Source: Tridacna crocea
Lineage: Eukaryota; Mollusca; Bivalvia; Cardiida; Cardiidae
Length of the DNA stretch: 64,000 nt
Assembly (NCBI GenBank): GCA_943736015.1
Contig: OX031069.1
Location: 20,465,235-20,529,234 of the forward strand
Reading direction: 5' to 3'
In this document: piece after piece, positions 1,071-63,850 of the stretch
Layout: every line of letters begins with the position of its first letter
How positions within the stretch are numbered: position 1 is the stretch's first letter
Notes under the pieces: model-generated
The model's database searches: none
What the model was told of the DNA's origin: nothing
The model's input: only the letters and a program-made list of their open reading frames with translations
Position numbers and translations under genes: made by a program

Positions 1071-1303
1071 TTTAGCCCTTTATCCCATGTCAAAGCATTT
1101 CTAGGGTATCTCTAATTGACCCTAAATAACAGCAAGAATGAAGCCATTTCTTATGTGTATATTACACTTTTTGATAGCACAGAAAACATTGTGGCAAAAA
1201 GTGAAATTGCTCGTCATGAGCAATTTCACCTTTTGCCACAATGTTTTCCAAAGGCTCCTACAAGCAATGCCTAGAAATGAGTATCTGTGGAATAAAGGGT
1301 TAA
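1071..1303 (-). mobile_element. TTAA-HP repeat, subfamily C
   Basis: Subfamily C differs from the main family in outer arms (TGACCCTAAATAACAGC and GCCTAGAAATGAGTATC) and in hairpin sequence: GGCAAAAGGTGAAATTGCTC and its complement around CGTCATG. Ends in TTAA. Confidence 0.8.
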
Positions 1304-1791
1304 GCTCTTCATTTCTTAATAAAGCGGAAGGTCATATATCGACAGAGTAAAAGAGGAAACGTATGTACTAAGGATACATGTTGTTCCAATCCTAATCTTC
1401 GTGATCTTTGACATAATCCAGAGCTCGCACGCAGGGAACCATAACTCTTCGTTAGCGTAGATCTACTGTATGTTTCTTCTTCCTGAGCCAACGCAAAACG
1501 ATTTCAAGAAAATTCCATGAAAATACACAATCTTTGAGTTTGTATAACTAGAAATGGTACAAAGCCACTAAGTCAATATTTCCAGGGTTATTTTTTCAAA
1601 TAGAGAAAAAAAATGTAAGGAAATTAAACGAAATTAAATGAATCATTCCTTACTGCTTCGCGGTTGGTTCCGTTTCCAATGTATTTCGTTTTGTATCCAC
1701 CTACTTTCAGTTTGAACTAGTAGCTTCACGTGACATGCCACCGTCAGTGGACTTTGATTTAGTGTGACACACCTAAAACTTATAAAGGAAT

Positions 1792-2009
1792 TTAACCCTT
1801 TTCCAAATGACAAATTTTAGACTGCCCCACCCTCAAAGTGTTTGCAAATGACAATTTCGAATTTGATGAGAACGATAGAAAGTTTTCCGATAGGCTAGAA
1901 AACACTTGGGAAAAGGAGAAATTGAGCAATTTCTCCTTTTCCCACAGTGTTTTCTAAAGACTTGTACTGCAGACACGTAAAAACCAGGGCTTGTTTGCGA
2001 AAGAGTTAA
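1792..2009 (-). mobile_element. TTAA-HP repeat, subfamily B
   Basis: Subfamily B has the hairpin GGGAAAAGGAGAAATTG..CAATTTCTCCTTTTCCC and the right arm ACTTGTACTGCAGACACGTA. TTAA at both ends; the hairpin loop is shortened here. Confidence 0.8.
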
Positions 2010-2071
2010 ACCCAAATGTTGCAAATTCATCTGGGGCTGGGGTTTGGATGGGGTGGGTTGATCTCTTGCTC

Positions 2072-2136
2072 GGATAGTGTAGATCCAATATCAGACTTTG
2101 CTGTCGATTTAGATTGATCTTAATCTACACTGTCCG
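2072..2136. repeat. Short hairpin repeat GATC-SH
   Basis: About 65 bp with arms AGTGTAGATC..TCAGAC and TGATCTTAATCTACACTGTCC. The same hairpin recurs about a dozen times in the window, with arms GTGTAGATCAAGATCAGACT and complement around a GCACAGAACGTGC loop. Confidence 0.6.
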
Positions 2137-2246
2137 CGCAAAAGGATCACTGCATGAGTCGAGCTTATCAGCCTAAGGGTTAATTAATTACCTGAGAAAC
2201 TTGAATTCTAATGGACCCGTGGATTTTAACTTCAAAACGATAAGAA

Positions 2247-2501: not shown

Positions 2502-2509
2502 CAAACTCC

Positions 2510-4784: not shown

Positions 4785-18513
<13,729 letters not shown>

Positions 18514-18548: not shown

Positions 18549-18783
18549 ATTAACACTTTAGCAAACAACAAATTTTTAGACTGGTCCAAATTGAAAGCAA
18601 TTGCAGATGACCAAGAAAAAAAAACAAAATTCAAAAACTGAAATTTTTTTCTAGTAGGGTAGAAAACAATGTGGGAAAAGGAGAAAATGCTGGTGACCAG
18701 CATTTTCTTCTTTTCCCACAATGTTTTCGAAAGGGCATTCCTTCAAATTGTCAAAAGTCGTGATTAAGTGGTAAAAGAATTAA
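18549..18783 (-). mobile_element. TTAA-HP repeat, subfamily A
   Basis: Begins 36 bp after the peptidase stop codon, so it may lie in the 3' UTR. Hairpin around GCTGGTGACCAGC. Confidence 0.85.
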
Positions 18784-18842: not shown

Positions 18843-19071
18843 TTAATCCATTACCACACAATCCTTACTTTTGACGACCCTGAGAAAGAAGCCTTTAGAA
18901 AACAATGTGGAAAAAGGAGATAATGCTGGTGACCAGCATTTTCTCCTTTTCCCACAATGTTTTCTACCCTTTACAAATCAAATTTCAAATTTTCACTCAC
19001 TTTTATTTTGTCGTCTGCAAATGCTTTCGATTTGGACAACCCTAAAATATTGTCGTTTCGTAACGAGTTAA
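18843..19071 (+). mobile_element. TTAA-HP repeat, subfamily A
   Basis: 229 bp, TTAA to TTAA. A further decayed hairpin remnant follows at 19075-19215. Confidence 0.88.
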
Positions 19072-19288: not shown

Positions 19289-19516
19289 TTAACTCATTAC
19301 CAAACGACAATATTTTAGACTTGTCCAAATCAAAAGCATTTGCAGATGACAACATAAGAGTGACTGAAAATTTGAAATTTGTTTTGTGAAGGGTAGAAGG
19401 CATTGTGGGAAAAGGAGAAAATGCTGGTTACCAGCATTTTCTCCTTTTCCCACAATGTTTTTTGAAGGCTTCTTTCTCAGGGGCGTCAAATGTAGGGATT
19501 GTGTGGTAATGGGTTA
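19289..19516 (-). mobile_element. TTAA-HP repeat, subfamily A
   Basis: Close to consensus; perfect hairpin GGAAAAGGAGAAAATGCTGG with TTACCAGCA centre. Confidence 0.9.
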
Positions 19517-19613
19517 AGTAGCCATGAAGATGTATTGCACTAGCTAGCCCCAGCATTAGCATCAGCCTATGCTTTGGTCATGGGTGGTTGAGTTTGTGGC
19601 TATTTGGTGCGTT

Positions 19614-19848
19614 ATGGGTAAACTCTTTGTCAAATGAGAAAATACCAGAATTGTCCAAATTGAGAGCATTTGCACACTACAAAATAGATGTAACTGAAAA
19701 ATTGTAATTTGGTTTGGAAAAGGTGGAAAACATTGTGGGAAAAGGAGAAAATGCTGGTCACTGGCATTTTCTCCTTTTGCCACAATGTTTTCAAAAGGCT
19801 TCTTTCTCAGGGTCATCAAAAGTTGGGTTTGTGTAGTAAAGAGTTACA
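19614..19848 (-). mobile_element. TTAA-HP repeat, subfamily A
   Basis: Hairpin centre GCTGGTCACTGGC; ends TAAA and TTAC. Confidence 0.83.
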
Positions 19849-23515: not shown

Positions 23516-23519
23516 TAGC

Positions 23520-27389: not shown

Positions 27390-27589
27390 TGTGTGCCTGA
27401 GATAGAAGCCTTTTGAAAATATTGTTGGAAAAGGAGAAAAAGCTGGTAACCAGCATTTTCCTCTTTTCCCACAATGTTTTCTACCCGTCACAAAACAAAT
27501 TTCAATTTTTCAATCACTTTTATTTTGTCGTCTGCAAATACTTTCAATTTGGACCAGCCAAAAAATATTGTTGTTTGGTAAAGGGTTAA
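27390..27589 (+). mobile_element. TTAA-HP, left end lost
   Basis: Orthologous to 41757-41986 in the second duplication copy, so it predates the duplication. Confidence 0.75.
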
Positions 27590-27813
27590 CCCTTTCCCAA
27601 ACGACAAATTTTCGACTTTTCCAAACTCAAAGAGTTTGCAGACGACAATTTCAAATTTGATATAAATGGCAGACAGTTCTCCAAATGGGTAGAAAACACT
27701 GTGGGAAGAGGAGAAATTGCTCGTTACGAGCAATTTCTCCTTTTCCCACAGTGTTTTCAAAAGACTTGTACTGCAGACACGTAAAAACAATGGCTTGTTT
27801 TGGAAAGGGTTAA
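27586..27813 (-). mobile_element. TTAA-HP repeat, subfamily B, copy-specific
   Basis: Inserted at the TTAA that ends the previous element; absent from the matching place near 41986. Perfect hairpin around CTCGTTACGAG. Confidence 0.88.
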
Positions 27814-28050
27814 TAATGATTTTTAAGCAATCACACACACAGAACTTAATATTTTTGTTAAATACATGTATATATATGCACAGAACTGCATTGTAAAATA
27901 AAATGAGGTTTATTTTATGAATTTCTGTCTTTCTATATTGTCATTCCTTTTAACCTTACCACACAATCCTGAGTTTTAATAATCCTGAATAGAGAAGGCT
28001 TTTGAAAACACTGTAGGCTTTCTAAAACATTGTAGGAAAAGAAGAAAATG

Positions 28051-28263
28051 TTTTACCACTCAATAACGACTTTCAACACCCTTGAGGAAGAAGCCTTCTG
28101 AAAGTACTGTGTGGAAAGGATAAAATACTGGTAACCAGCATTTTCACTTTTTTCCCAGAGTGTGTTCTACCCTATCAGGATCAGATTTCATTATTTGTGT
28201 CACATATAAATTGTTGTCTGCAAATACTTTCAATTTGGACCAGGTTGTCTGATAAAGAGTTAA
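28051..28263 (+). mobile_element. TTAA-HP repeat, diverged, shared by both copies
   Basis: Matches 42260-42478. Hairpin decayed; right arm TTGTTGTCTGCAAATACTTT retained. Confidence 0.7.
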
Positions 28264-28724: not shown

Positions 28725-28953
28725 TTAACCCTTTACTCCATAGATGCTCATTTCTACACATGACTTGTAGGAGCCTTTGGAAAATATTGTGGCAAAAGGT
28801 GAAATTGCTCGTGACGAGCAATTTCACCTTTTGCCACAATGTTTTCTATGCTATCAAAAGGTGCCATATACAAATAAGAAACAGCTTCATCCTTGCTGTT
28901 ATTTAGGTTTAATTAGAGATATTATAGAAATGCCTTATAGGGTAAAGGGTTAA
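28725..28953 (+). mobile_element. TTAA-HP repeat, subfamily C, copy-specific
   Basis: TTAA duplicated at both ends; the second duplication copy has the empty site GGCTGTTAAGTGCAACTC at 42960. Perfect hairpin around CTCGTGACGAG. A solo end fragment of the same subfamily lies at 28661-28713. Confidence 0.93.
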
Positions 28954-37114: not shown

Positions 37115-37800
37115 CCATGCTGGGGGGGGGGGGGGTTCCGGGGTCATGCTCCCCTGAAAAAAAAAAATGAAAATAAGACGCTCTCTGGTGCATTCTGGCG
37201 CATTTTTTGACTGTTTACTAGTATATTACGCATTTAACTCATTACCAAATAACAATATTTTGGGCTTGTCCAAATTGAAAGCATTTACAGACGACAGAGT
37301 AAATGTGACTGAAAAATTTAAATTTGTTTTGTGAAGGGTAAAAAACATTGTGGGAAAAGGAGAAAATGCTGGTTACCAGCATTTTCTCCTTTTCCCACAA
37401 TGTTTTCTAAAGGCTTCTTTCTCAGGGGTGTCAAAAAGTAGGGATTGTGTGGTAATGGGTTAAGCCATGCTAGGGGGGTCAGGGGCATGCTCCCCCGGAA
37501 AAAAATTGAAAATAAGACGCTCTCTCGTGCATTTTTGCGCATTTTTTTAGGTTTATATTACGCATTTAAGCCATGCTAGGGAGGGTCCGGGGCATGCTCC
37601 CCCGGAAAATTTTTGAAAAATAAGACGCTCCCTGGTGCATTCTGGCGCATTTTTTTGAGGTTTATATTACGCATTTAAGCCATGCTAGGGGGGTTCTGGG
37701 GGCATGCTCCCCAGGAAATATTTTGAAAATAAGATGCACTCTGGTGCATTCTGGCCTATTTTTTGAGGTTTATATTGCGCATTTTTTCGAAAATTGGTCT
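37115..37800 (+). repeat. Tandem repeat of about 110 bp, four units
   Basis: Units begin CCATGCTAGGGGG and contain GGGGCATGCTCCCCCGGAAA, AATAAGACGCTCTCT and TTTATATTACGCATTTAAG. The first unit is interrupted by the TTAA-HP at 37234-37463. A 14-base G run occurs in the first unit. Confidence 0.8.
37234..37463 (-). mobile_element. TTAA-HP repeat with internal proof of target site
   Basis: Sits in ACGCATTTAA / TTAAGCCATGCTAGG; neighbouring tandem units show the uninterrupted ACGCATTTAAGCCATGCTAG. Perfect hairpin around GCTGGTTACCAGC. Confidence 0.95.
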
Positions 37801-38470: not shown

Positions 38471-38705
38471 TTAACCCATTACCACACTATCCCTACTTTT
38501 GACGACCCTGAGAAAGAAGCCTTTAGAAAACATTGTGGGAAAAGGAGAAAATGCTGATAATCATTACCAGCATTTTCTCCTTTTCCCACAATGTTTTCTA
38601 CCCGTCACAAAACAAATTTCAAATTTCAAGTCACTTTTATCTTGTCGTCTTCAAATGCTTTCGATTTGGACAAGCCTAATACATTGTCGTATAGTAATAA
38701 GTTAA
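38471..38705 (+). mobile_element. TTAA-HP repeat, subfamily A
   Basis: Hairpin loop enlarged to GCTGATAATCATTACCAGC; otherwise conserved. Confidence 0.87.
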
Positions 38706-39312: not shown

Positions 39313-39543
39313 CCTTACCCTTTACCAAACAATCCCTGGTTTGTATGACCCTGAGATAGAAGCCTTTTGAACACATTATGGCTAAAGGAGAAAAGGCTGG
39401 TTACCACCATTTTCTCCTTTTCCCACTATATTTCTACCCTGCTGGAAACATATTTCAATTTTTCAATTAGGTATTTATTTTGTCTTCTGCAAGTGCTTTC
39501 AATTTGGACCAGTCTAAAATTTTGTCGTTTGGAATAGGGTTAA
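39313..39543 (+). mobile_element. TTAA-HP repeat, subfamily A
   Basis: About 80 bp after the candidate exon 39060-39235. Hairpin with mismatches. Confidence 0.8.
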
Positions 39544-39576: not shown

Positions 39577-39803
39577 TTAACCCTTTAACACAAAATGTCG
39601 ACTTTTGATCCTCCTGGAAAAGAAGCCTTTCGAAAACGTGGGAAAAGGAGAAAATGCTGGTAACCACTATTTTCTCTTTTTCCCACAATGTTTTCTACCC
39701 TATCAAAGAAAATTTGCACAACTGAAGACACTTTGAAATTGTCGTCTGCAAATGCTTTCAATTTGGACAAAGGCTAAAATTTTTTTGTCTAGTAAAAGGT
39801 TAA
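39577..39803 (+). mobile_element. TTAA-HP repeat, subfamily A
   Basis: TTAA ends; left hairpin arm shortened by loss of a few bases. Confidence 0.83.
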
Positions 39804-39984: not shown

Positions 39985-40213
39985 TTAACAGAATACCAAG
40001 CCATCCCGACTTTTAACAATTATGTTACAGAAGGCTTCTGAAAACGTTGTGGGAAAAGAAGAAAATGCTGGTAACCAGCATGTTCTCTTTTTCCCACAGT
40101 GTTTCCTACCCTGCTGAAAACAAATTTCAATTTTTGAGATTTGTTTATTTTGTTATCTGCAAATGCTTTCAGTTTGGACAAGACTAGAATTTTGTTGTTT
40201 GGTGAAGAATTAA
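39985..40213 (+). mobile_element. TTAA-HP repeat, subfamily A
   Basis: TTAA ends, 229 bp; another decayed hairpin precedes it at 39865-39925. Confidence 0.82.
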
Positions 40214-40241
40214 ATTATGGATGACTGACATGGATTAATTC

Positions 40242-40463
40242 TTAACCACACGATCCCGACTTTTGACGACCCCAAGACAGAAAACCTTTAGAAACATTGT
40301 GGGAAAAGGAGAAAATGCTGGTTACCAGCATTTTCTCCTTTTCCCACAATGTTTTCTACCTTTCCAAATAAAATTTCAGTTTTTGGGTCATGCTTATTAT
40401 GTTGTCTGCAAATGCTTTCAAGTTGGACTAGTCCAAAATTTTGTAATCTGGTAAAGAAATAAG
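40242..40463 (+). mobile_element. TTAA-HP repeat, subfamily A
   Basis: Perfect hairpin AACATTGTGGGAAAAGGAGA and complement around GCTGGTTACCAGC; ends degraded. Confidence 0.84.
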
Positions 40464-41482: not shown

Positions 41483-41710
41483 TTAAATCTTTACCAAACT
41501 ACATAATTTTATACTTGTCCAAGTTGAAAGCTTTTGCAGACAACAAAGTAAATGTAACTCAAAAATTGAAATTTGTTTTCAGCAGGGTAGCAAACATTGT
41601 GGGAAAAGGAGAAAATACTGGTTATCGGCATTTTCTCCTTTTCCCATAATGTTTTAAAACTGCTTCTTTCACAGGTTGTTAAAAGTTGGGATTTTGTGGT
41701 AAAGGTTTAA
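41483..41710 (-). mobile_element. TTAA-HP repeat, copy-2-specific
   Basis: TTAA on both sides; the empty site in copy 1 is CTTTTTTAAACAGGAATA at 27355-27372. Confidence 0.92.
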
Positions 41711-41756: not shown

Positions 41757-41986
41757 TTAACCCTTTACTGTACAATCCCTGGTTTTTATGACCCTGAGGG
41801 AGAAGCCTTTTGAAAACATTGTGGGAAAAAGAGAGAATGCTGGTAACCAGCATTTTCTCCTTTGCCCACAATATTTTCTACCCTGCTGGAAACAAATTTC
41901 AAATTTCCAGTTAATTTTATATTGTCGTCTGCAAGTGCTTTCAATTTGGACCAGTCTAAAATTTTGTTGTTGGTAAAGAGTATAAT
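41757..41986 (+). mobile_element. TTAA-HP repeat, shared with copy 1
   Basis: Hairpin nearly perfect; right end GTTGGTAAAGAGTATAA, orthologous to 27390-27589. Confidence 0.82.
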
Positions 41987-42259: not shown

Positions 42260-42478
42260 TTAACCCTTTACCACTCAATAACGACTTTAAACACCACTTG
42301 AGGAAGAAGCCTTTTGAAAGCACTGTGGGAAAAGGAGAAAATGCTGTGTTTTCTCTTTCCCATAGTGTTTTCTACCCTATCAGAATCAAATTTCATTATT
42401 TGAGTCACATTTAAATTGTTGTCTCCAAATACTTTCAAGTTGGGCAAGGTCAAAACTTTGTCGTCTGGTAAAGAGTTG
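42260..42478 (+). mobile_element. TTAA-HP repeat, shared with copy 1
   Basis: Left arm TTTACCACTCAATAACGACT; hairpin reduced to a GCTGTG loop. Confidence 0.78.
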
Positions 42479-42670
42479 AAATATTGGAGGTTTTTGAAAA
42501 CATTGTGGGAAAAGAAGAAAATGCTGGTGACCAGAAGAGAAGTCTTTCAGATAAAGAGATGGCTTTTGAAAACATTGTTGGAAAAAAAGAAAAAGCTTGT
42601 GACCAGAAAAGGAGAATTCTTCTGAGAAATTGACAGCTTATGAAAACATTGTGGGAAAAGACGAAAATGC

Positions 42671-49756: not shown

Positions 49757-49956
49757 TTAACTCTTTACTGAATGAAAACATTTTAGACTTGAATAAATTA
49801 CAAATATTTGCAGATAACAATAGAAATGTAACACTATAATAGAAACATGTTCCCAGCAGGTTAGAAAAAATTGAGGGAACAGCAGAAGATACTGCTTACC
49901 AGTGTTTACAAAAAGCTACTATGACAGAGTCATGAAAACCAATAATTGTTTAGTTA
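49757..49956 (-). mobile_element. TTAA-HP repeat, diverged
   Basis: Hairpin shortened; its last TTAA is the first TTAA of the next element. Confidence 0.75.
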
Positions 49957-50188
49957 ACCCATTAACATACCATCCCTACTTTTGATGACCCTGAGAAAGA
50001 AGCCTTTGGAAAAACACTGTGGCAAAAGGAGAAAATGCTGGTAGCAGCAAACAGCATTTTCTCTTTCTCCCATAATGTTTTCTACCCTTCACAAAACAAT
50101 TTCAAATTTTCAGTCTCTTTCATATAGTCGTTTGCAAATGCTTTTGATGTGAACAAACCATAAAATTTTGTCAGTTAGTAATGAGTTA
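49953..50188 (+). mobile_element. TTAA-HP repeat, abutting the previous one
   Basis: Shares TTAA 49953-49956 with its neighbour, opposite orientation, showing insertion into an existing element end. Confidence 0.85.
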
Positions 50189-50305
50189 AAGTGTTAAACC
50201 TTTTATATCCAAAATTGGTCAGAAACCCATACATGTGAAAGATTGGCTATTCTATAAATGACAGTTTTCTTCACTTCATCCTTGTTACATTGTTTTATAT
50301 TTCAG

Positions 50306-50614: not shown

Positions 50615-50842
50615 TTAACCCATTACCACACAATCCCTACTTTTGACGCCTCTGAAAAAGAAGCCTTTTGAAACCATTGTGGGAAAAGGAGAAAATGCTG
50701 GTAACCAGCATTTTCTCCTTTTCCCACAATGTTTTCTCTCTTCTCTGATATAAATTTCAAATTTTCAGTCACTTTTATTTTGACGTCTACAAATGCTTTG
50801 AATTTGGACCAGTCTAAATTTTGTCGCTTGGTAAAGAGTTAA
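50615..50842 (+). mobile_element. TTAA-HP repeat, subfamily A
   Basis: Starts 87 bp after the ballast-gene stop; perfect hairpin. Preceded by an old right arm (50545-50612), so probably also inserted into an element end. Confidence 0.87.
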
Positions 50843-51064: not shown

Positions 51065-51293
51065 TTAACCCCTTCCCAAACGACAAATTTTTGGACTAGA
51101 CCAAATTGAAAGCATTTGCAGATGACAATTCAACTCTTGCTGAAAAGATGATTTCTGTCTGTGATAGGGTAGAAAACATTGTGGGAAAAGGAGAAAATGC
51201 TGGTTACCAGCATTTTCTCCTTTTCCCACAATGTTTTCAAAAGGCTACTATTTCAGACCCGTAAAAACCAGGGATTGTTTGGGAAAGGGTTAA
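51065..51293 (-). mobile_element. TTAA-HP repeat, variant D
   Basis: Left arm CAATTCAACTCTTGCTGAAA and right arm GGCTACTATTTCAGACCCGT define a variant also seen at 9486 and 46000. Perfect hairpin of 33-bp arms, 229 bp. Confidence 0.9.
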
Positions 51294-51507
51294 TTACACT
51301 AAAAAATCTGGGTCAGCAATGTTTTTTAGATATACAGCAGTATTTTTTTATCTTATACATGTGTGAGACAAGAACATTTTGTAATTTCTGTATTATATGG
51401 GAAACAAGGGGAGTTATGTGACAAAAAGTAAAGCCTACATAAATTTTTGGCCCTTTACTAAAACAAACAGGTGATCAGCAGTGAACACTTCACAATACAT
51501 TTTATCA

Positions 51508-51992
51508 ACCAATTGCCATACAATTCTGAGTTTTAATGGGCCTGAAAAAAATTTTGAAAACATTATGGGAAAAGTGGTGATGCTAGTAACCAGCATGTAT
51601 TCCTTTTCCCACCATGTTTTCTTTTCAAAGGAAAGTGTCACCATTTGAACCAACTTTGATGGTTGTCTACAAATGCTATAAATTTGGACAAGTCTGAAAT
51701 TTTGTTTTGGTACAGAGTTAGAAGAAATTGCTTGTAATGAACAATTTCTTCTTTTTCGGCACTATTTTATTTATTGTCAACAAAGTGCAGCTTTTAAGGA
51801 ATAGAATGGTCATCCACACATTCAGTCCGAACTTTTGAGGACCTGTTGGATTAAGGCATATGAAAACCTTGGACGAAAAGTGTAAAAAGCAGGTAACCTG
51901 CATTGTTTTCTATGCTCAGTGGAAAATTTTTTTGAGGCAGTGTTGCTTATAATGCGAACAAGTCTTTAATTTTGTTGTCAGGCTTTGAGTTA
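51508..51992 (+). mobile_element. Two decayed TTAA-HP copies in series
   Basis: 51508-51721 and 51812-51992, both with left arm ..AATTCTGAGTTTTAA or AGTCCGAACTTTTGAG, weak hairpins and right ends near GAGTTA. Confidence 0.6.
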
Positions 51993-52218
51993 ACTCTGTA
52001 CCACACAAATGATTTTTAGACCAGTCCAATTTGAAAGAAGTTGCTGACAACAAAATAAACTTAACTAAAAAATAGAAATTTGTTGCCAGTGGGGTAGAAA
52101 ACTTTGGGTGAAAAGAAGAACATGCTGGTTACCAGCATTTCCTCTTTTTCCCACAATGTTTTCAAAAGGCTTCCATCTAAGGGTCGTAAAAAACAGGGAT
52201 TGTTTGGCACAGGGTTGA
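51990..52218 (-). mobile_element. TTAA-HP repeat, subfamily A
   Basis: 229 bp; hairpin with several mismatches (GAAAAGAAGAACATGCTGGT). Confidence 0.78.
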
Positions 52219-53497: not shown

Positions 53498-56400
53498 CTA
53501 AAAAAAAAAAAGGAACTGAATGTTTATTTCCATCTTGGGTATTATTCTAGTTATACTATGGCAAACAATTTTGCTAATTCAAGGTCTTGTTGATGCGACC
53601 AACTGTTCATTCTTGATCATCTATCCAGTCTTAATGCTTACTTTTAACAAGAATACCATAGAGGGAGTTCATAACCACAGTACTTGTGATATAACCAAAG
53701 GGTCTTACTATGTGATGGCCCTGGTTGTCTATCTGTCTGTCTGTCAATTCGTCCCTTTGCAATTTCTTGCGTGTGCAACTTCTCCTACAGTTTCCGTTGG
53801 AACAAGTTCAGACTTTCCACAATGAATCTCTAAAATGTGTGGTTGGGCATTTGACTCTTAAAATTTGGATCGCATAGGTGTTCTTGATTTAAACCCATTT
53901 CAATGACAAACCCATGCAGGTGTAACGCAAAAAAATGACCCCCATTACAAAATGACCCCCGGGTCATTTCTCGACGTAGAATAATGACCCGGGTCATTTT
54001 TCTACGTTGAAAAATGACCCATGGGTCATTCCTCTACGTCGAGAAATGACCCGTGGGTCATTTTGTAATGGGGGTCATTTTTCTGCTTTACACAGGCATA
54101 TATACGCCGCTCTGCAAAGCTCTTGTTGTCCTTGGTATGATGTGGTGTAAGGCTGAAACCTTGCTTTGAACATGAATACAGTTGAATACCTTGCACCAAC
54201 CAATGCCATCTTCAAACTATCCAGAGAAAGAATGCTTTTGAAAACATGTGAACATGAGAAAATGTTTGTAACCAGCTCATTTTCCATTTGCACAATGTAT
54301 ATTACTGTTTGAGATAGAAATTTCATGTTTTGAATAAACATCAGTATGTCACATTACCAACTACCTTACCAAATGTTGCTTCTTTTTTCACTTCTTTAGC
54401 AATTGCTGCACCTTTCCTTGATTTCGGAAATGATATTCTCCATTGTAAATTCCCATCTTTTGTCACTGCTTGAGTTTGTGAGGAATTTTCATTACAATGA
54501 AGTGCAGCTAGAGCAAGTCTGAAATGAAATATATACGTTTTCCTTACAAGTCACCAATTTAAAACTATTACCAATTCAGTGTTTTATAAACATATCTGCA
54601 GTAGAAGTCCTAACAATATCGTGGGAAAAGGAACAGTTGCCCATGACAAACAATTGCTAATTCCCACCATGTTTCCTACAATATTGGAGCACTATGTACC
54701 AGTTTCAGGAATGATCTGTAAGCAGCAAAGTCTTTCAATTTAGGATGCTGCATCTTTTTATATATAGTCAGAAAAAAGGTTGAATATGATTTTCATTCAA
54801 CAGTTTGATGAAATGCACAGGACTGATAGGTGTAAGTTACAAATGTTTTTCCAAGTTTAGTATTCAATTGTCTAACGATTTTATTCTAACACAAATTATT
54901 AACCCATTACCACACAATACCTACTTTTGATGACCCTGAGAAAAAAAGCCTTTAGGAAACAATGTGGGAAAAGGAGAAAACGCTGGTTACCAGCATTTTC
55001 TCATTTTCCCACAATGTTTTCTACCCTTCACAAAACTTTCTAATTTCCAGTCACTTTACTTTTGTTGTCTGCAAATGCTTCTGATTTGGACAAACCTAAA
55101 ATTTTCTTGTTTTGCAAAGAGTCAACCATCTACATTACGGAGAATCTGGGCAAAAACTTGGACAATTACAACACAAGTTACCTTGCTTCCATCTGTGCAT
55201 AGAAGTAATGTACCGACTTCGAAGTAAACTGGCAAACAACATTATGAAAAGACTCAAGTGTAGATGTCTGTTCAGTTTGTGACAGCTTTTTTACATCTTG
55301 CACAAGCAGTCTTCCTATGACAATTTTTCCATTTCAACATATGGTTTAAAACCTGCCAAAAACAAAATACAATTACAGATAAAAGATTCCAGATCTGTCA
55401 AGACCTAATTCGGATTCCAGTTTGGTTAGGCAGACTGAAAATCTGCTCAGATCAAATTGGAATATTTCCTTGTGAAATAGTGTGACTACCTGTAAACCAT
55501 CTCAATTCATTTGGTTCCCAGAATAGAGGTTTCAATCAGATATTCAGTTAAAATTGACTTTTAAAAGTGTTCTACTTTAGTGGCAAAAACAATTATGAAA
55601 AACACAGAATTTGTATGGAAAAAGAGTAGAAATCATAATGTCTTATGGGAGGATGAAAATAAAAATTGAAGTACACTCTTCTATGTATTTTGAGTTGTAT
55701 TTTTTCCTATGGAAGAGCTTTTGTTTAGCAGATCAAAGATAAAACAGAAAATAAGAACCAAATTGAGTATTTATGTACCTTTTTTCATCCAGTCTCTGTC
55801 ATCTAGCTGCCCATGTTCACAATGTGGAAACTTCTCTCCATGTCCACTGTGAATATTTGCCACATGGTTGAGAACTGATAGCCACTTCTGTTGCACAAGC
55901 TCACCATCACAACCACTACTTGCAGCACACCAGTACATATGGTTACTTATGGACCTTGCCCAGTCCTTCACTTTTTGCCATCCTTTTTTCTTGCCAGCCG
56001 CTTCAAGTTTCTTGTAGACACCTGTGAAAAAAAGAAAAACAAAATAGTCATTTCAATTAACTCTTTACCAAACAAGAAAACTTTAGACTTGTCCATTGAA
56101 ATTGAAAGCATTTGCAGCCAACAAAGTAAATATGACTTGAAAATTGAAATTTGTATTAGGATGGGTAGAAAACAATGTGGGAAAAGAAGAAAATGCTGTT
56201 TACCAGCATTTTCTCCTTTTCCAACATTTTTTTCAAAAGGCCTCTTTCCCAGGGTCTGTAAAAGTCGTGATTGTGTTGGAAATTTTTAAACTTTGAAATC
56301 TCAAAGATCCAAAGCCAAAGGTCAATCTTACATTTCTCACAAATTTGTGAATCTGTCTTTCTCTTTGTCAGTTCAACCACCTGTCTGCCCATCTTTTTTT

Positions 56401-59400
56401 CATTTCCATGCTCTAACTCAAAATCTATTTGACCTGGGACCCTGAAACTTTATCCAAGTGTTTCTCATGACCCAAGGAGGTGTCGTATTGTTTTTGGTTC
56501 ACGTTGGTCATCTGACAAGGTGCTGGTGGACGCATTAGTCCGCTTTGCAGTAGATTTAGTTTGGTGTTTTAAGCTGCATGGTATTTTACTCTGCTTTCAA
56601 TCTGATATTTAACAGTATCACCATAAAAGCTCACTTATTCATGCATGTGCTGGTTTTCACCAGTATTCCCAAGGACACTCCCATGAAAAACGCAGTGCTT
56701 ACAGTAAGGCTTAAACCTGGGATCTTCACAAGTCTTGTATTTAAGCACTTAGTCATGCCAGACCTCTTTTTCATAGTATTTATAGTATATATCAAATTAC
56801 TCTGTAAAGTTATTGTGATAAAGTATGATGCTGTCGACTATATAAATTTAACTTAAATATTAAATCACCAATATTTTGTGTTAAAATTGATTTCTGCAAA
56901 ACCTTTCACAAAAGAATTGTCTTTGCAGCCATTTTAGATTAAGATAAGACTGCACAAAGTAATCAGTCTGATCTTAGTTAAGCTGTGTTTATTTATGCCA
57001 AGATCTCCTTGCATAAGAGAATCTTAAGACTTCAGATGTCTATTTTCTTATTTTGCTTTGCGTTTGGCTTGGGTCAGAAGCAAGGGTATTCCTTTCTTTG
57101 GAATGAAACAATAGCAGGCTGTAGTGCATGTGAGATTGCCTCTTACATGTATGTTTTACATTTTATCAAGTATATATCATCAAAAGGAAAAAAGAAATTT
57201 ATTTTTTATTCTGACAGCTGTACAACAATAAACAAAAACAGGTTCTATGTATCAATGCTGTGGCATTGCATACATACAGTTTACTATGGATGTATAGTCA
57301 ATTTCCCACAAGTACTCTGAAAAAGGTCTTACACAAAATGAAAATTACTCAATGCATTCTGGATCTGTCAATTGCATAATGCATTGAGAGACCCAGGCGA
57401 AAAATTGAAATATATAGTACTGCTGAAGGGGCTGCAGTGATTTGATGTGCATGATGAAAAAAAAACATTCAAGGTACAAATGATGGATCAAACAAACTTT
57501 TATGATTTAAAGCAGATGTCTGAAACTTAAAAAAATTTTGAATACATAACTGAGAAGGAGAGAGTTACATGCAAAAATATCTGGGTGATTTCCTTCTCAG
57601 ATGAGCACAAATTCTCTTTCTTCTTCAAGTATCATTATGATACTGATTTTCACAGTGTCAGTTTACTCGATCTCTACTCAACAAGGTCAGACTCCACACC
57701 AGAGATAGATATGTCTGCTATGAAATTAAACAAACTCAAAGACAATTTAATTCCAATATCATCAAAAAATTATGATGACCTTGTGTCCCTCATAATGTGT
57801 AAATGACATACCGGTATTCCAAAAAGTCATCACTCGTTTCATCTACTTCTGCCTCATCTTTAAAGATTGTCTACAAACTTTTGCCTGTTTCAGTCAAATT
57901 AGCCCAACTCTTTACCAAACAACAAAATTTCATACTGGTCTAAATTCAAAGCATTTGCAGAAGACAAATGTAACTGAAATGACGATTTCCCTCTTCAACA
58001 GGGTGGAAAATATTGTGGGAAAAGGAGAAAAATGCTAGTAACAAGCATTTACTCCTTTGCCCATAATGTTTTCCAAAGGCTTTTTTCCCAGGTCATGAAT
58101 ACCTGGGATTGATTGGTAATTATTCCAGAATTTCTGTCCAATTCATCTTTTATGACAGTTTCGTTGAAAAAAGTGACAGTTTTTGTGTCTATTGAAATAC
58201 AACATGATACAAATATAGCATATTATTTACAAGAATTGTGAACAATAGCAATATATTTTATAAAATTTGTTGTGCTGTTTTGTTATACATTTTTCTTGTT
58301 ACAAAGATACATATATCATGTGTATTGATAACTGCACTGTTATGTTGCTGTGTTCAAAATGTGGTTACATGTATTTATTAATTGAAAAATGAATGATAAA
58401 AAATGCCTAATTATTCTCTCATATCCCAGATAGCCAAAAAATGAAATGGACACTTTCATTCCGTAAAATGCCTGACCTTTCTGGGACTAAATGACTGAAA
58501 TGGACAATTTCAGTCAAATGACTGAAATGGACAGTTTCAGTCAAGACTATTTCTGTTTTTTTGCCTGCATATCTGGCAGTAAAGCAGACAGTGTAGATTT
58601 TAAATTGGACTGCAGGCTCTGTGCAGTCTGATTCAGGTATACACTCTCTATAAAGTAATTGCTGAATCTTGTTTCAGCATAACACAACTTAATTACATAT
58701 TACAATCTCAATGATGTTTGACCAAAATCTACCAAAATAATTATGTCACATCATACCCCCAGGACCAGACCTTGATCTACTCTGTCCATAAAAGCTTGTA
58801 TATGCTTGGCAGTCTGGGGAACTTTAAATCTTTGGAATCGAGAATTTTTGATAAACAGAAATTGTTATCTGGCTAAAAGTCAGGATTGTCCCATATAGGG
58901 CTAATATGGAGTGTTTGATACTTGCACTTTAATTCTCGAGGTTGAGAAGGAGAAGTAACCTACTGTTCTACTGGTTTGAAAATCTATAGTTCCAGTTTGG
59001 TTTCATTAACCCATTACCACACAATCCCTACTTTTGACGCCCCCGAGAAAGAAGCCTTCAGAAAACAATGTGGGAAAAGGAGAAAATGCTGGTAACCAGC
59101 ATTTTCTCCTTTTCCCACACTGTTTTCTACCCTTCACAAAACAAATTTCAAATTTTTAGTCAGTTTTATTTTGTTGTCTGCAAATGCTTTCAATTTGGAC
59201 AAGTCTATAATTTTGTCGTTTGGTAATGGGTTAAACATCTTGCTAAAAAGACTGTTAAGTTACAGGAAAAAGAGTAGAACAAAATTTTGATTGCAGTGTC
59301 CATTAAATGGCCCTGAATTGCTTGCAGATAGTTGTTGTTAGTTAATCTCAATAAAACAAACATCTTTTAACAACCAAGAATCAAGTTACACAAACTGACT

Positions 59401-62400
59401 GTGGGTTCTGTATGATTTGCATGGCTTTGTGGTAGATCTATACTTGTAAGCCTTTGGTTTGTAAAGCACTATTTACTTCAGAACCCTGGCCTTGGCCTGG
59501 TGAAGCCAAGGACACATATAAGTTACCTGTCACAGTGAAATCACTGAAGTAATGATGAAAGTGATGAAAAACACAGACATACATACAGTATGCTGCCTGT
59601 GAGTTGCTTGCAATTATTCTTTGAAGGGTTCTAACCTGGCTTATTGATTAAAAGTGTTCATTTGTCTTCCATACCTCCCAGATTCATTCCTAGGCTATAG
59701 TGCTGATACTTGAGAGCTTTCTCAGAAAAGTAGTGCAGAGCCTTTAGAAGCCTACTGCTGACAAAACACATTAATCACTTGAATAAGAAAAACTGAAATA
59801 CTGTTGAACAAACATAAATTTACTTATACCAAACATGTCAGCAATTAAAAATCGATCAAGCCCAACCCTGCTGAAGCAGGAACTGAAAACTTCCATGACA
59901 AGAGTATGACAATTCTACTGCACTTGAACACCAATTTAGCACATAACCACATGTGGAAAATTGATCAAATCTTCATTGAATCAACTCTTTACAACCCAAC
60001 AAAATTTAAGCCAAGACTAATCAAAACCATTTTGAAGATGACAAAGTAAATGTGACTAAAAAGTATTTTTTTTCTTGACAGGTAAGAAAATGTGAAAATG
60101 CCTGAAAAGGCCGGTTAACTAGAATTTCATATCTCCCCACAATGTTTTCAAAAACTGTCTTCCCCAGGATCGTTAAAAGTTGGGATTATCTGATAAAGGG
60201 TTAAAGATAAAAAAAAATCTAATACTTATATACCAGTTTTCCACATTATATTCATAATTTTACATTACAATCAGTTTAGCAAAGAGATAGCAGAATGCAA
60301 GTCAACAGCAATTTCTTCTCTCCAATGCAATATCTATCCTTTCTATAATGCTGTTGCACTGTAAGCCTCTATAAGCACATTTTCAGCAACAATCTGTTAT
60401 CTCAAAGAACATAATACTTTTTGTGAATTGAAAAAAACTTCAAATTTGTTTAAATTCTATGTAAACAATGCAAATACCATAGTTCCATACTAAAGATGAT
60501 TTCTGTAAAACACCATTTTTCTTGGTGTGAAACTATTGTAAGTGACATTCCATTAAAAAGCAGAAAATTCAATTTGTTTTTTCTTAAAATGATTTTTGTT
60601 ATTAACACAACTTTCTGAAATACAAATCATATCTAAGTGTTTATCCAGCTTAAGCTTTAATAATGAAATGAAACATTTTTTTCCTTCTCCTGTAAAATTT
60701 TGGAAAATGCAGATACCATAGTTTCACTCTAACCCAGCATGAAAATGTTCATACAGACAACACTCACTTTCAAAACCCCTCTCAGATGTTGAAAGTTTAC
60801 AAACCATTACCTTTTGCAACATGCCAAACATCAAACCAGTGCTGAATACAGGGCCTTTCTTCACGCAAATGCTTCTTTATGGAGCTGTGACGGACTGTTA
60901 CTAGGTCCGCCACGTTTAGGTCCTGTATCTCTATGAGCCATCCAAGTCCTCTCTTTAACCCCTCCATTTCCATGGCATGGGAGTTTCGGACTTCATTGCT
61001 CTGAAAACATTAGCAGTAATGTGTAAATATACTCCTTTCTGAACTTCAAGGAAGTTCAGTTACAGATGCAGTAACCTACATGTATTAGAGATGCTCTGCA
61101 TGTGAATATGTATGTATTTCATATGCATTGCAAGAAATTATGTTGGATTGGACTGAAAAAATAGCAAAACTCTGGTCCATTCAAAATTCATAGCCTATTA
61201 TTTAGCATTTTAAACATGGGTCAAATTATCAGATTCTTCTCATGCAAGAGTAGTCAACATTGTGGTAAAGAGAGAAAATGCTGGTTTTAAAAACCCTCTC
61301 CTTCATGCTGATGAAATTCAAAAATGGTGGTAAAGGGCTCATGTGCTAATATGAATTATGAAAACATTAGAATTTTCACAAACATACCTGAACCAGCTGA
61401 AAATCCAAAACTTGGTTTGCTTCTAGGTCTATCATTGTGTAAGAGCCATATTTTGCTGTATGACCTGGGGTGCAACATCTCAAATCTCCAGCCAGCTTCA
61501 GTGATTTACCATGGCTCCTTATCTCCCTGACCATGGACTGTTGGTGCTTTTTCCAAACTGACATTATAGTTGGTGTTAAATAAACCGACTGTATCAAATT
61601 AAAAGTACTGTTGCTTATACATGTATTTTGTATTGAAGCAAAGTCTAGCGCTCTCAGTACTTTCACTGGACTCACACCACAAAACATGACTGCTGCACTC
61701 AAAATTAAGTTTCCCAATGGCATGTTACCGCATAGTGGCTGACTTCGCCATGTTGTCTCCTGCTCACAGTTGAAGCACTTAATGTCACATACCAGACATG
61801 TTCCTACAGTCTTCTTGTTCACACAAGTGATAGCTCCACAGACAGAACACTTGTTTAATAAACTGTAGAGACATGATTCAAACACAATGTACTTTCTTTC
61901 TTTGGCAATATTTGTATCACAATCCTTGATTTCATTACCACTGTCTTCAATTGGATGCCACTCAGGATCTCTAGTGTTGTCTGATACTAATGGCAACAGG
62001 GATTCATTCAAACTTTCATTCATATGTGGTTCATTCATATTCATACCCTTCATATGAGGCTGTATGTCATGTTCTTTACTCAGGGGAATGGAGGTTGTTT
62101 GGGTGCCTTTATTTTCTGTCTGCACAACTGGACATTGGATCAAAACACTCCTTCTTTTCTGTTGAAGAAAAATTACAATGTTCAGATAAAATTAATGTTA
62201 TAACACTAAAGCTGCTAAGGACGACTCGGGCTCCTTTTGTGGACAGTGTAGATGAATATCAGAATAGAAAATTGTGCAGTCTGATCTTGGATCTACACTG
62301 TCCAAGAGGGAGACAGCTTTCTTCCACAAAATCTAAACTTGAATAGCAATTTTGGGTTTTTAACTCCAAACGAGAAAAGTTAGATGGGTCTATACTGAAA

Positions 62401-63034
62401 GCATATGCAGATGACAAATAAAACGCAACTGGAGAATTGAAATATTGTTCCCAGCAGGGTAGAGATCACAATGATTTCAGCTGTCAGTAGCTGGCATTGC
62501 ATTAAGTTTGGTTATCAAAGAGCATAGCTCATAATAGATATATCCAGTTCAGTAATTGAAATTTACTTTGAGGAAAGGAGTATGCATTTTTGAGATGTCA
62601 TTTACTTTTTATTGCCTAATCTACAACCATTCTCTTAGCTTTAACTCTTTATCAAATGACAAAATTTTCAACTCCCCTCAATGAGTGCATTTGCAATTGC
62701 ATGGTACATGCTATTGAAAGCATGATGTGAAATGGAGACTACCGTATGCTGGTTACCAGTATTTTCTCCTTCTTCCACATTGTTTTGAAAAGGTTTGTTC
62801 CTCAGGGTCATTAAAACTTGAAACTGTGTGGCAAAAATTTCATGCATAAACAAAGTGAAACTTACGGCAAGGTTGTAAGCTGTCTGTGTGGCTGTTGAAA
62901 ATGTTTGTTGACTGGTGAGAGTTTGGCTTGGCAGTCCATTTTCATCGGAGCCTATCGGGTTGATCTGGTGGGTTGTAGATAACTGTGCCTGTTGATTTGT
63001 TGACAGTTTGGAAGTGATTTTGTTCAAGTTGTCT
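53316..63034 (-). CDS. Transposase-like gene (Kolobok-like), seven exons, probably decayed or domesticated
   Basis: Minus-strand exons 62866-63034, 61388-62158, 60811-61000, 55779-56021, 55182-55352, 54370-54518 and 53316-53497 follow the order of a large animal family of DDE-type transposase-like proteins. Its recognised segments are RKYIVFESCL, a C-x2-C zinc-ribbon-like region, LAGDxR..PGHTAKYGSYT, NEVRNS..MEMEGLKRGL, HWFDVWHVAKG, NHMYWCAAS, QTSTLESFH, LALAALHCNEN and a basic C-terminus RARFTR. I assign it to Kolobok-like from memory; that superfamily targets TTAA. Oddities: VTDRH is VTVRH here, the normal GDGRxDSPG is GDLRCCTPG, and exon 55182-55352 is one base short of frame. Introns interrupt the catalytic core, unlike in a fresh transposon. 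The 5' start is not resolved. Confidence 0.75.
53935..54078. repeat. 144-bp palindrome of ATGACCC units
   Basis: ATGACCCCCATTACAAAATG at the left pairs exactly with the right end; inside, CCCGGGTCATT, GACCCGGGTC and ACCCATGGGT form smaller palindromes. Minus-strand gene intron just after the last exon junction. Confidence 0.85.
54370..54518 (-). CDS. Transposase-like gene, exon LAALHCNEN
   Basis: Acceptor ATTTCATTTCAG and donor GTAAGG (reverse strand). Reads LALAALHCNENSSQTQAVTK, then WRISFPKSRKGAAIAK. LAALHxNEN and KSRKG are conserved in the family. Phases fit both neighbours. Confidence 0.8.
54899..55125 (+). mobile_element. TTAA-HP repeat, subfamily A
   Basis: In the intron between exons 55182 and 54518 of the minus-strand gene; hairpin GCTGGTTACCAGC with one mismatch. 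Confidence 0.85.
55182..55352 (-). pseudogene. Transposase-like gene, exon with LESFH motif, one base out of frame
   Basis: Acceptor TTTTTGGCAG and donor GTAACT (reverse strand). The first 10 codons (FKPYVEMEK) and the rest (VIGRLLVQDVKKLSQTEQTS, then LESFHNVVCQF and YAQMEAR) are in different frames. The exon is 171 nt, whereas flanking phases demand 172. The shift falls at a run of five A's (plus-strand T run 55324-55328), so either a true 1-nt loss or an assembly error. The Glu of LESFH is the likely third catalytic acid. Confidence 0.72.
55779..56021 (-). CDS. Transposase-like gene, exon with NHMYWCA motif
   Basis: Acceptor TTTTCACAG and donor GTACAT (reverse strand). 80 full codons: VYKKLEAAGKKKGWQKVKDW, SISNHMYWCAASSGCDGELV, KWLSVLNHVANIHSGHGEKF and HCEHGQLDDRDWMKKG. 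This is the helical insertion region of the family, with conserved Cys/His (W..A, H..GH, C.HG). Frame intact. Confidence 0.82.
56057..56289 (-). mobile_element. TTAA-HP repeat, subfamily A
   Basis: TTAA ends; 36 bp from the acceptor of the minus-strand exon at 56021. Confidence 0.84.
56300..57039. other. Intronic sequence with a GATC-SH hairpin
   Basis: AGATTAAGATAAGACTGCAC and complement at 56934-56987. The rest (AAATCTATTTGACCTGGGAC ..) looks like old repeat. Confidence 0.45.
57040..57860 (+). pseudogene. Broken copy of the SDxCxxxNKN gene family
   Basis: Recognisable in order: a segment with YSFLWNETIAGCSACEIASY, then FIFYSDSCTTINKNRFYVSM, then TQNENYSMHS (family TQNENDSMHS), then MDQTNFYDLKQMSE, and finally FSFFFKYHYDTDF and PISSKNYDDLVSLI. 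This order matches a widespread uncharacterised animal family, probably mobile-element derived, that I know from its (F)SDNCxGQNKN motif; I cannot name it further. The copy lacks its N-terminal half and is clearly broken in several places. It lies on the opposite strand inside a 4.8-kb intron of the transposase-like gene. Confidence 0.65.
57903..58123 (-). mobile_element. TTAA-HP repeat, subfamily A
   Basis: Follows the broken SDxCxxxNKN copy by about 45 bp. Hairpin with mismatches, ends degraded. Confidence 0.78.
58130..59005. other. Intronic sequence
   Basis: A GATC-SH hairpin at 58590-58644 and a local repeat of AAATGGACA(C/A/G)TTTCA (58443-58550). No exon seen. Confidence 0.45.
59006..59234 (+). 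mobile_element. TTAA-HP repeat, subfamily A, near consensus
   Basis: 229 bp between TTAA copies; both terminal 13-mers (TTAACCCATTACC / GGTAATGGGTTAA) are exact inverted repeats. Confidence 0.92.
59693..59757 (-). pseudogene. Possible orphan exon resembling the LAALH exon
   Basis: On the minus strand, after TTTTGTCAG, a short frame reads SRLLKALHYFSEKALKYQHY before a GT. It resembles the RLxLAALHxNENAxRxQ segment of the same transposase family, but lies in the wrong order, inside the intron between the exons at 60811 and 56021. It may be a relic of an older copy or chance. Confidence 0.3.
59981..60204 (-). mobile_element. TTAA-HP repeat, strongly diverged
   Basis: Only the outer arms and a weak centre GGCCGGTTAACTAG remain. 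Confidence 0.65.
60205..60810. other. Intronic sequence
   Basis: AT-rich; nothing recognised. Confidence 0.4.
60811..61000 (-). CDS. Transposase-like gene, exon with DVWH motif
   Basis: Acceptor ATGTTTTCAG and donor GTAATG (reverse strand). Reads SNEVRNSHAMEMEGLKRGLG, then LVTVRHSSIKK and QHWFDVWHVAKG. In the relatives I know, the middle motif is VTDRH; the valine replaces what is probably the second catalytic Asp. Phase 1 at the end joins the exon starting 56021. Confidence 0.82.
61388..62158 (-). CDS. Transposase-like gene, large exon: zinc ribbon and first catalytic Asp
   Basis: 257 codons, phase 0 to 0, acceptor CTTCAACAG and donor GTATGT. After an acidic, Met/Asn-rich linker come DPEWHPIED, RKYIVFESCLYSLL, then four Cys pairs (CSVC, CLVC, CFNC and nearby Cys) typical of the family zinc-binding part, and TTWRSQPLCGNMPLGNLILS. 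The C-terminal part has KLAGDLRCCTPGHTAKYGSY; the Asp of GD is the first expected catalytic acid and is present, although the flanking GRxDS is altered. No stop or frameshift in 771 nt argues for recent function or selection. Confidence 0.82.
62240..62308. repeat. GATC-SH hairpin
   Basis: TGGACAGTGTAGATGAATAT and complement CTTGGATCTACACTGTCCA; in the intron between the two most 5' minus-strand exons. Confidence 0.7.
62357..62465 (-). mobile_element. TTAA-HP left arm
   Basis: AACTCCAAACGAGAAAAGTT..CAGCAGGGTAGA, broken at the hairpin. Confidence 0.6.
62641..62838 (-). mobile_element. TTAA-HP repeat, diverged
   Basis: Left hairpin arm mostly lost; right arm CATTGTTTTGAAAAGG present. Ends 28 bp before the minus-strand exon 62866. 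Confidence 0.7.
62866..63034 (-). CDS. Transposase-like gene, 5'-most readable exon
   Basis: Donor GTAAGT (reverse strand) at 62865-62860 and phase 0 match the next exon. The frame is open back to a stop at 63088-63090, and I place the left edge at the CAACAG acceptor giving start 63034. The translation, ending TFSTATQTAYNLA, is low-complexity and Gln/Thr-rich as in family N-terminal linkers. It contains no ATG, so a start exon lies further upstream; frames open at 63072-63314 may contribute. Confidence 0.45.
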
Positions 63035-63039
63035 CTGTT

Positions 63040-63330
63040 GGAACTTGGATTCAGATGAAAATGTAGAGAGCTTAGGTAAAGAACTTGTTAAATCTGCAAA
63101 CCACGTCAATGAACAAGGGTAAGACTGGCAGGTCTGAGGATTCATTGTAGATGACACTGCTGTAGTTGTGATGATGGAAGTGGTTGTACATAGCAGCTAT
63201 TGAGGGGCAAGCAGTCACACAAGAGGAAAGTGGAACTGCTGTGTAAACTTCTCCAAAATGGTCTGTGTTTGTCTCTGCTAAACATGGATTCCTTTCTTTT
63301 TGTCTGAGCATCAAAGTTGAGTTTATCTAA
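63040..63330 (-). other. Open but unresolved upstream sequence of the transposase-like gene
   Basis: Minus-strand frames such as SSVIYNESSDLPVLPLFIDV and LTWFADLTSSLPKLSTFSSE look protein-like but lie in different frames without obvious junctions. A good acceptor (GAATTTTTAG) lies at 63330-63320. They may be parts of the N-terminal region. Confidence 0.35.
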
Positions 63331-63473
63331 AAATTCAATGGCAAAACATTGAAATCAAAGTTGCATGTTATCCATATGGGTAAAAAATACATTAGGGTTT
63401 ATTCTTGAAATGTTATCCAGTTTAGCTGAGGAGTAGCAGCAGTAGTGTTAGGCATTTGTCATTTGGTAAAGTG

Positions 63474-63684
63474 TTAACTCTTTACCAAATGACAAAATTT
63501 TAGACTGGTCCAAATTGAAAGCATTTGCAGACGACAAAATGAATGTGATCAAAGAATTGAAATTTGTTTTAGGAAGGGAAAAAAACATTGTTGGAAATGG
63601 AGAAAATGCTGGTTCCTAGAATGTTTTCAAAAGGCTTCTTTCACAGGGGGTGTTCAGAGTAGGGACTGTGTGGTAAAAGGTTAA
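63474..63684 (-). mobile_element. TTAA-HP repeat, hairpin half deleted
   Basis: TTAA ends; the right hairpin arm is lost. Shares its last TTAA with the next copy. Confidence 0.82.
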
Positions 63685-63850
63685 CTCTTTAATACACAAT
63701 CCTGACTTTTAGAGAATCAGAGAATTTCCCACAATGTTTTCTGCCCTTCCAAACTCAAATTTCGATTTTTTAGTGACATTCATTTTGTCATCTTCAAATA
63801 CTTTCAATTTGGACTTGTCTGTAATTTTGTTGTTTGGTAAGGAGTCAAAC
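63681..63850 (+). mobile_element. TTAA-HP repeat, abutting, hairpin mostly lost
   Basis: TTAACTCTTTAATACACAAT left arm, right arm TTTTGTCATCTTCAAATACT, end GGAGTCAAAC. Confidence 0.75.

Follow-up and report, generated by a model that had tools for sequence, protein, structure and literature searches.

The stretch of DNA described here, called the window throughout, covers 64,000 nucleotides of the Tridacna crocea genome (assembly GCA_943736015.1, contig OX031069.1, positions 20,465,235 to 20,529,234 of the forward strand), and it carries more than a hundred copies of a miniature inverted-repeat transposable element (MITE) bounded by TTAA and folded around a long central hairpin. A profile iterated from the subfamily A copy at 31258-31486, which also served as query for the genome search, gave 169 raw matches covering 17,268 bases, or 27.0% of the window. 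At a laxer cut-off the family covers 27.5% and resolves into 105 distinct copies, including 43 of nearly full length; the reversed, uncomplemented window, used as a control, gave 0 profile matches. The original prediction, made from the letters of the window, had spoken of more than 50 copies filling about a sixth of it between positions 1071 and 63850: the family is indeed there, its share was understated, and the matches run slightly wider, over positions 1-63,985. The motif GCTGGT(A/T)ACCAGC occurs exactly 20 times in the window.

A genome-wide count had also been proposed, and it shows how far the family extends beyond this locus. The assembly consists of 18 large contigs amounting to 1,048.8 Mb, in which the 31-base hairpin core has 183,553 exact occurrences (reversed control, 0). 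In a sample of 40 random loci (20 of 2,000 bases and 20 of 1,200 bases, 64 kb in total, with a GC content of 36%), 18.8% of the sequence belongs to the family (bootstrap 95% interval 13.2-24.6%); 29 of the 40 loci have matches, representing 72 distinct copies, of which 31 are full. Extrapolated to the 1.05-Gb genome, the family would number about 1.2 million fragments, and its full copies about 0.5 million.

The window and the fetched loci together hold 163 full copies, from which 33 near-identical ones carried by larger repeats were left out, and the remaining 130 were clustered. Four clusters have at least seven members: A (75), B (10), E (9) and C (7), with A over-represented, since the best matches to one of its copies are among the fetched loci. 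All subfamilies share the same layout: TTAA, a terminal inverted repeat (TIR), a left arm of about 90 bp, a hairpin of 67 bp, a right arm of about 40 bp, the second TIR and TTAA. The consensus is 229 bp long in three of the four main subfamilies and 228 bp in the fourth, and in A, B and E the hairpin has perfect arms of 33-35 bp around one central base. Members of the piggyBac superfamily have TIRs of 12-19 bp. Counting the TTAA, the TIR here reaches 13-14 bp or more in all four consensuses; once the TTAA is excluded, A and C have a shorter perfect repeat and match over about 10 bp, with one mismatch. The layout, the 13-bp outer inverted repeats and the near-perfect hairpin with 33-bp arms in mid-element had all been recognized in the original prediction and stand. 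Its description of one 229-bp element does not, since there are several subfamilies and the left arm of C is unlike those of A and B (no better than shuffles, z 0.4 and 0.6). The right arm of C retains a weak similarity to A and B (z 3.4 for both), the left arms of C and E are at most weakly similar (z 2.2), and within subfamilies the arms do align outside the hairpin.

From one subfamily to another, the TIR sequence changes at both ends together. After the TTAA, both sides read CCCT in B, C and E, and CTC[AT] and CCCA in A, where the left-hand outer 13 bp of the consensus are TTAACTC(A/T)TTACC and the right-hand ones TTAACCCATTACC. A terminal CC[C/T]T is usual for piggyBac, but the piggyBac element AmiPB4 is reported with CCCATT (PMC2872659), and as the matching T. 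crocea piggyBac element described below departs from the motif just as A does, the motif is better seen as usual than as defining. Within A, one diagnostic base per end distinguishes two types: 28 of the 75 copies are of the CATTACC type at both ends, 26 of the CTTTACC type at both, 18 are mixed and 3 are other, a concordance with a Fisher p of 1.7e-5 (copies that retain the whole heptamer at the two ends number 19 and 7 of the 75, respectively). The CATTACC-type copies are younger, with a hairpin self-mismatch of 3.0% vs. 5.1% in the CTTTACC type.

The family inserts at TTAA. Among the 43 near-full-length copies of the window, 28 have TTAA at the left end, 30 at the right end and 22 at both, against a background of 489 TTAA among 64,000 positions. 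Empty sites were sought for 62 copies bounded by TTAA on both sides: the flanks of each were joined and compared with the window and the fetched loci, and three sites were then read base by base. One insertion (locus L031) lies in a piggyBac element and is absent from nine sister copies of this host (93-98% identity over about 164 bp), eight of which have a single intact TTAA at the site, the ninth having an altered one. For the copy at 37234, two other units of the 108-bp tandem array at 37460-37784 provide the empty site, again with one TTAA, in a gapped alignment of about 86% identity. Another insertion (L033) is absent from seven sister copies, all of which read TTTA there, one base off TTAA. 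For most of the 62 sites, the sequence searched, itself a small fraction of the genome, offers no empty counterpart. As for a TTAA shared between neighbours, adjacent copies with intact facing ends number 4 pairs among the 105 copies of the window. With TTAA ends, TIRs and an empty site with one TTAA, the description of a MITE family whose ends fall at TTAA is well supported.

The element is almost certainly a non-autonomous piggyBac transposon, a known kind of MITE. The piggyBac domain PF13843 has at least 118 matches in the genome, where several piggyBac families have near-identical copies with open frames, which suggests recent activity as judged from the sequences; one group, with a frame of 624 amino acids (L014-L017), shows 99.4-99.9% identity. 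As far as ends could be placed in the best 30 piggyBac loci (those of loci L009, L010, L012, L024, L030 and L036 stand outside the comparison), the families have TIR types such as TTAACCCTTTATATAC, TTAACCCTAGTCATGC, TTAACCCTTTCAGTGC and others, unlike those of the MITE, and one family fitted (L025-L029). This is an element of 7,203 bp present in two places whose flanks differ, with 99.9% identity between the two copies, one of which lacks TTAA at its right end; the element's frame of 491 amino acids matches DDE_Tnp_1_7 (E 2.7e-88). Its ends, placed using the outer flanks of the two copies, are TTAACCCATTACC and TTAACTCATTACCA, which is the TIR of the A consensus together with its C/T asymmetry. 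The right end of the MITE and the left end of this 7.2-kb element are identical at 31 of 40 bases, including 18 of 27 beyond the TIR, a score reached by 3 of 100,000 shuffles, and six other piggyBac elements match the MITE ends at 12-23 of 40 bases in any pairing. The young, CATTACC-type A copies are those that carry the TIR of the 7.2-kb element. On the strength of the shared ends and of the TIR in the younger copies, this element is a candidate transposase source for subfamily A. As for B, a B-type right arm without hairpin lies next to a piggyBac element in the flank of L013 (758-817) and at the same place in L023. This arm could be the end of a longer relative of B; over 2.5 kb further on the L013 side, the sole open frame of at least 90 codons has 104 codons.

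The hairpin itself can be used as a clock. If it is taken as perfect on insertion, the mismatches between its two arms date each copy, assuming equal mutation rates along the element. In subfamily A, 180 of 2,386 stem pairs are mismatched, about 3.8% per site, with G.T (51) and A.C (43) mismatches about equally frequent. Divergence from the A consensus is 13.0% in the arms and 4.5% in the hairpin, and subtracting the 3.8% leaves a shared variation of 9.2% (8.0-10.4) in the arms vs. 0.7% (0.4-1.0) in the hairpin. Post-insertion decay therefore looks ordinary, and the peculiarity lies in what the source lineages pass on. The difference remains when CpG-like sites are removed (hairpin 5.7%, arms 11.0%). 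Singletons were tried as a measure of recent mutation and are about equal in hairpin and arms, but they are saturated at such divergence, and self-mismatch was used instead.

What the sources pass on is a hairpin that changes by pairs. Six stem bases differ between A and B, making up three pairs, all of them re-paired. Between A and C there are four re-paired pairs, in addition to the centre and one loop-adjacent base that leaves a G.T; between B and C there are three, with the same loop-adjacent base and the centre. The 33 stem pairs of A, B and C comprise 27 identical ones, five with changes on both sides that keep the pairing, and one with a change on a single side. Of the five re-paired changes, four are transversion swaps (G:C to C:G, A:T to T:A). 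Pair statistics were computed on all 80 hairpins of the window and random loci (76 distinct), in which 90.2% of cells are paired. Covariation reaches 0.145, compared with 0.089 in shuffled and at most 0.067 in slid controls (0.135 vs. 0.073 in a hand-chosen set of 60 of the 80), and both sides have changed in 62 cells, compared with 15.9 in shuffled and 21-36 in slid controls; the hairpin sequences being related by descent, the shuffle figures are not probabilities. That pairing has been kept while the arms drifted suggests that the palindrome matters for the spread of the element, and we consider it likely that it is maintained in the source lineages rather than incidental. The hairpin was also considered as an inserted foreign palindrome, which is unlikely: among 174 distinct matches from the window and random loci, 115 have the hairpin and both arms and 4 the hairpin only, three of these in one rearranged stretch at 42.2-42.6 kb.

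Taken together, the best explanation of the whole is a piggyBac MITE whose palindrome is a cis-acting core kept in its source copies, a reading to which we give a probability of roughly 0.55. The 7.2-kb element or its close relatives would supply transposase in trans, and the older subfamilies, which have other TIRs, would have depended on piggyBac transposases of earlier times. As for the central palindrome of 67 bp, it would act in cis as a component of the mobile unit and be retained in those copies that amplify. But what could a mobile element do with a palindrome at its centre? The piggyBac and piggyBat transposases are described as binding short palindromes via dimers of their C-terminal zinc domains and as bending DNA (PMC7351741, PMC11707139). 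In the same manner, the likeliest role for the palindrome would be that of a two-fold symmetric platform where a dimeric transposase (or a host factor) loads, joining two close ends; reachable from both tips of a 229-bp element, it would act as a shared loading site, and a change in one arm would become fixed in source lineages only with a matching change in the other. Whereas maintenance is likely, a role in transposition as its reason is put forward tentatively, at somewhat less than even odds.

Several observations weigh against this explanation. The insertion at L033 is not a clean case of a TTAA target. The similarity to the 7.2-kb element is restricted to one end, its right end matching the left end of the MITE at 18 of 40 bases, in the TIR only, and for subfamilies B, C and E no partner was found among the piggyBac elements compared. 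The long frame of the 7.2-kb element has no match to the Pfam C-terminal zinc domain (its other exon lay outside the scan), and the element has only two palindromes of comparable strength, both within nested MITE copies. According to the accounts available, the palindromes of piggyBac and piggyBat are 14-19 bp long and located close to the tips, in full-length elements, whereas here there is one, of 67 bp, in the centre (PMC7351741, PMC11707139). As for the pairing, stem pairs in which both sides have changed in any copy number 15 of 33, within the range of the slid controls (11-17). Finally, in the 53 closest copy pairs the ratio of hairpin to arm differences is already 0.31, and a lower mutation rate or a slow arm-to-arm correction in the hairpin, making the clock too low, could in part account for the contrast with the arms.

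Correction of this sort is at the heart of a serious rival, which we nevertheless regard as rather unlikely: the palindrome would be functionless, and DNA-level copying of one arm onto the other, through template switching or cruciform repair, would keep the sources palindromic by mutation. The four transversion swaps speak in its favor, being impossible via G.T wobble, as does the near equality of G.T and A.C mismatches, without any RNA-type wobble preference. Single copies were looked at in the first-listed matches of the genome search, all on contig C1. At three stem pairs, 276 of the 288 variants are one-sided, and the doubles number 6 of 94, 1 of 99 and 5 of 95, of which 4, 1 and 4 are complementary. 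If the two sides changed independently, at the one-sided rates given by the whole counts, about 2.7 doubles would be expected altogether, compared with the 12 seen. Such an excess is small, absent at the second stem pair and inflated by the mixed ages of the copies, and 3 of the 12 doubles are not complementary. Between A and B, 2 of 53 copies among the matches listed are a fully paired intermediate, with 46 B copies and 5 one-sided ones. The paired intermediates, swaps and doubles fit both source-level selection on DNA structure and arm-to-arm copying. The dominance of one-sided variants among the matches listed implies that correction after insertion is rare, and correction alone leaves unexplained why 27 of 33 pairs are identical across A, B and C while the arms lose their similarity.

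A bolder reading goes further: the palindrome, and not the ends, would be the persistent unit, a core maintained by its structure and acquired in turn by different piggyBac-type ends. The idea comes from subfamily C, which has other TIRs and a left arm unlike those of A and B around the same core, with four pairs swapped on both sides relative to A. It is doubtful, and a slight similarity between the left arms of C and E makes it more so. If correct, a tiny element could serve successive transposases and in this way reach about a fifth of a gigabase genome.

The transversion swaps and the equal numbers of G.T and A.C mismatches favor DNA over RNA as the level at which pairing acts. They make it quite improbable that the hairpin works as RNA, with a 33-bp stem feeding a small-RNA pathway or protecting a transcript, in spite of the near-perfect stem and the covariation, which speak for such a role; moreover, the window has 0 Rfam matches at the gathering threshold, and a cut-and-paste DNA element requires no RNA of its own. 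Very unlikely, too, is mobilization by a Kolobok-type transposase, another enzyme using TTAA, instead of piggyBac. The window does contain a transposase-like exon at 61376-62191 (-), which we take to be Kolobok-like and which exists in seven copies, the window's own included, that are 95-100% identical, but it has no significant Pfam match, and the MITE ends share 31 of 40 bases, as well as the end asymmetry, with a piggyBac element; for the Kolobok-like element, the comparison covers the exon and stops short of the ends. Helitrons have no target site duplication and no TIR, and carry their hairpin near the 3' end, so a rolling-circle or other hairpin-ended element merely looking TTAA-bounded can hardly be the answer for a family with TIRs, a central hairpin, and a full copy with TTAA at both ends whose empty site has one TTAA. 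One T. crocea annotation does assign 22.48% of the genome to rolling-circle elements, a share like that measured here (PMC11700175), but another gives only 1.03% for Helitron (PMC10858879).

The near-full-length copies are collected in Table 1. A stretch of about 5.6 kb (19,848-25,503) is devoid of profile matches and houses an array of 156-bp tandem units (21120-22841), closely similar units forming a second array at 25780-26261. Two other palindromic features are present: an apparent second, unrelated near-perfect palindromic family (GATTGGCTAAACCA...GGTTTAGCCAATC) at 3647-3718, found again at L080:591-676, L097:1050-1137 and L076:523-592, and a short palindrome at 52686-52771 with TTAA at its start and end, perhaps another small TTAA element. 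An alpha/beta hydrolase exon lies at 9729-10061 (+) (Abhydrolase_1, E 1.5e-14).

Table 1. The 43 near-full-length copies found in the window by the profile search, with the type example of the central hairpin. Subfamilies are those assigned by clustering.
Feature	Subfamily	Positions	Strand	TTAA at both ends	Remarks
copy	C	1072..1303	+		
copy	B	1792..2009	+	yes	
copy		7101..7330	-	yes	
copy	C	8199..8428	+	yes	
copy	C	9237..9465	+		
copy		11367..11595	-	yes	
copy	E	12135..12362	+		
copy		12636..12863	+		
copy		13259..13484	+		
copy		14337..14552	+		
copy	E	15561..15790	+		
copy		16234..16456	-		
copy		17908..18133	+	yes	nested in older family copy; joined flanks align to other copies
copy		18550..18782	+		
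copy		18843..19071	-	yes	
copy		19289..19517	+	yes	
copy		19619..19847	+		
copy	B	27586..27813	+	yes	
copy		28045..28263	-		
copy	C	28725..28953	-	yes	
copy	A	31258..31486	+	yes	genome-search query
central hairpin of 31258 copy		31365..31431	+		type example; 33-bp arms and 1-base centre
copy	B	33097..33294	-	yes	
copy		37234..37463	+	yes	at TTAA of 108-bp tandem array
copy		38471..38705	-	yes	
copy		39314..39543	-		
copy	E	39577..39803	-	yes	
copy		39985..40213	-	yes	
copy		40235..40462	-		
copy		41483..41710	+	yes	
copy		41757..41984	-		
copy		42260..42479	-		
copy		49954..50189	-	yes	
copy		50615..50842	-	yes	
copy		51065..51293	+	yes	
copy		51505..51721	-		
copy		51990..52218	+		
copy		54899..55125	-		
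copy		56057..56289	+	yes	
copy		57904..58127	+		
copy	A	59006..59234	-	yes	
copy		59981..60204	+		
copy		62641..62842	+		diverged
copy		63474..63684	+	yes	

At 13-25% of a 1-Gb genome, a single 229-bp element is a main contributor to genome size. The two T. crocea annotations cited above disagree on how such DNA is to be classified, the rolling-circle share of the one (PMC11700175) facing in the other, besides its low Helitron figure, 34.9% of "Unknown" DNA elements (PMC10858879). The present family could be what they label differently, and if this is true, statements on the class of element that expanded with photosymbiosis would need revision. In the first of these articles, text and table also disagree on the values for T. 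maxima (PMC11700175).

How does this family compare with known systems? Among the papers listed by searches of the accessible literature (subscription journals, Repbase and Dfam aside), judged mostly by title and abstract, no description of this element or of a centrally hairpinned piggyBac MITE was found. With the piggyBac and piggyBat ends, as they are described, it shares the TTAA target, a TIR at the tip and asymmetric ends, and the dimer-bound palindrome is a feature of theirs, located in piggyBat on the left end only (PMC7351741, PMC11707139). The MITE-like repeats of Anopheles are likewise non-coding and of palindromic structure, but there the palindrome is reported either to make up the entire repeat or to form its flanking ends, the clusters measuring 430-1678 nt, and here it is a central core set in non-palindromic arms (PMC3212995). 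Closest are the CMITEs of Acropora corals (Wang et al., 2010, PMC2872659), which are also piggyBac-type MITEs with TTAA duplications, differing TIRs and a conserved internal region, one CMITE family sharing its TIR with a piggyBac element. They differ in size and number, with about 100 bp and about 1,600 copies, compared with 229 bp and about 0.5 million here, and the accessible parts of that article make no mention of a hairpin or of paired changes (PMC2872659). The 60-bp internal CMITE consensus has no similarity to the MITE (local score 14, shuffled mean 15.5, with 245 of 300 shuffles as high). By its abundance and by a central palindrome kept paired across subfamilies, the T. crocea family is a distinct variant of piggyBac MITE, close in spirit to the CMITEs. 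The authors who described the latter suspect that the internal region aids transposition, and the question they leave open, why the internal region of a MITE should be better conserved than its ends (PMC2872659), becomes testable here, with hundreds of thousands of copies and a structural signature.

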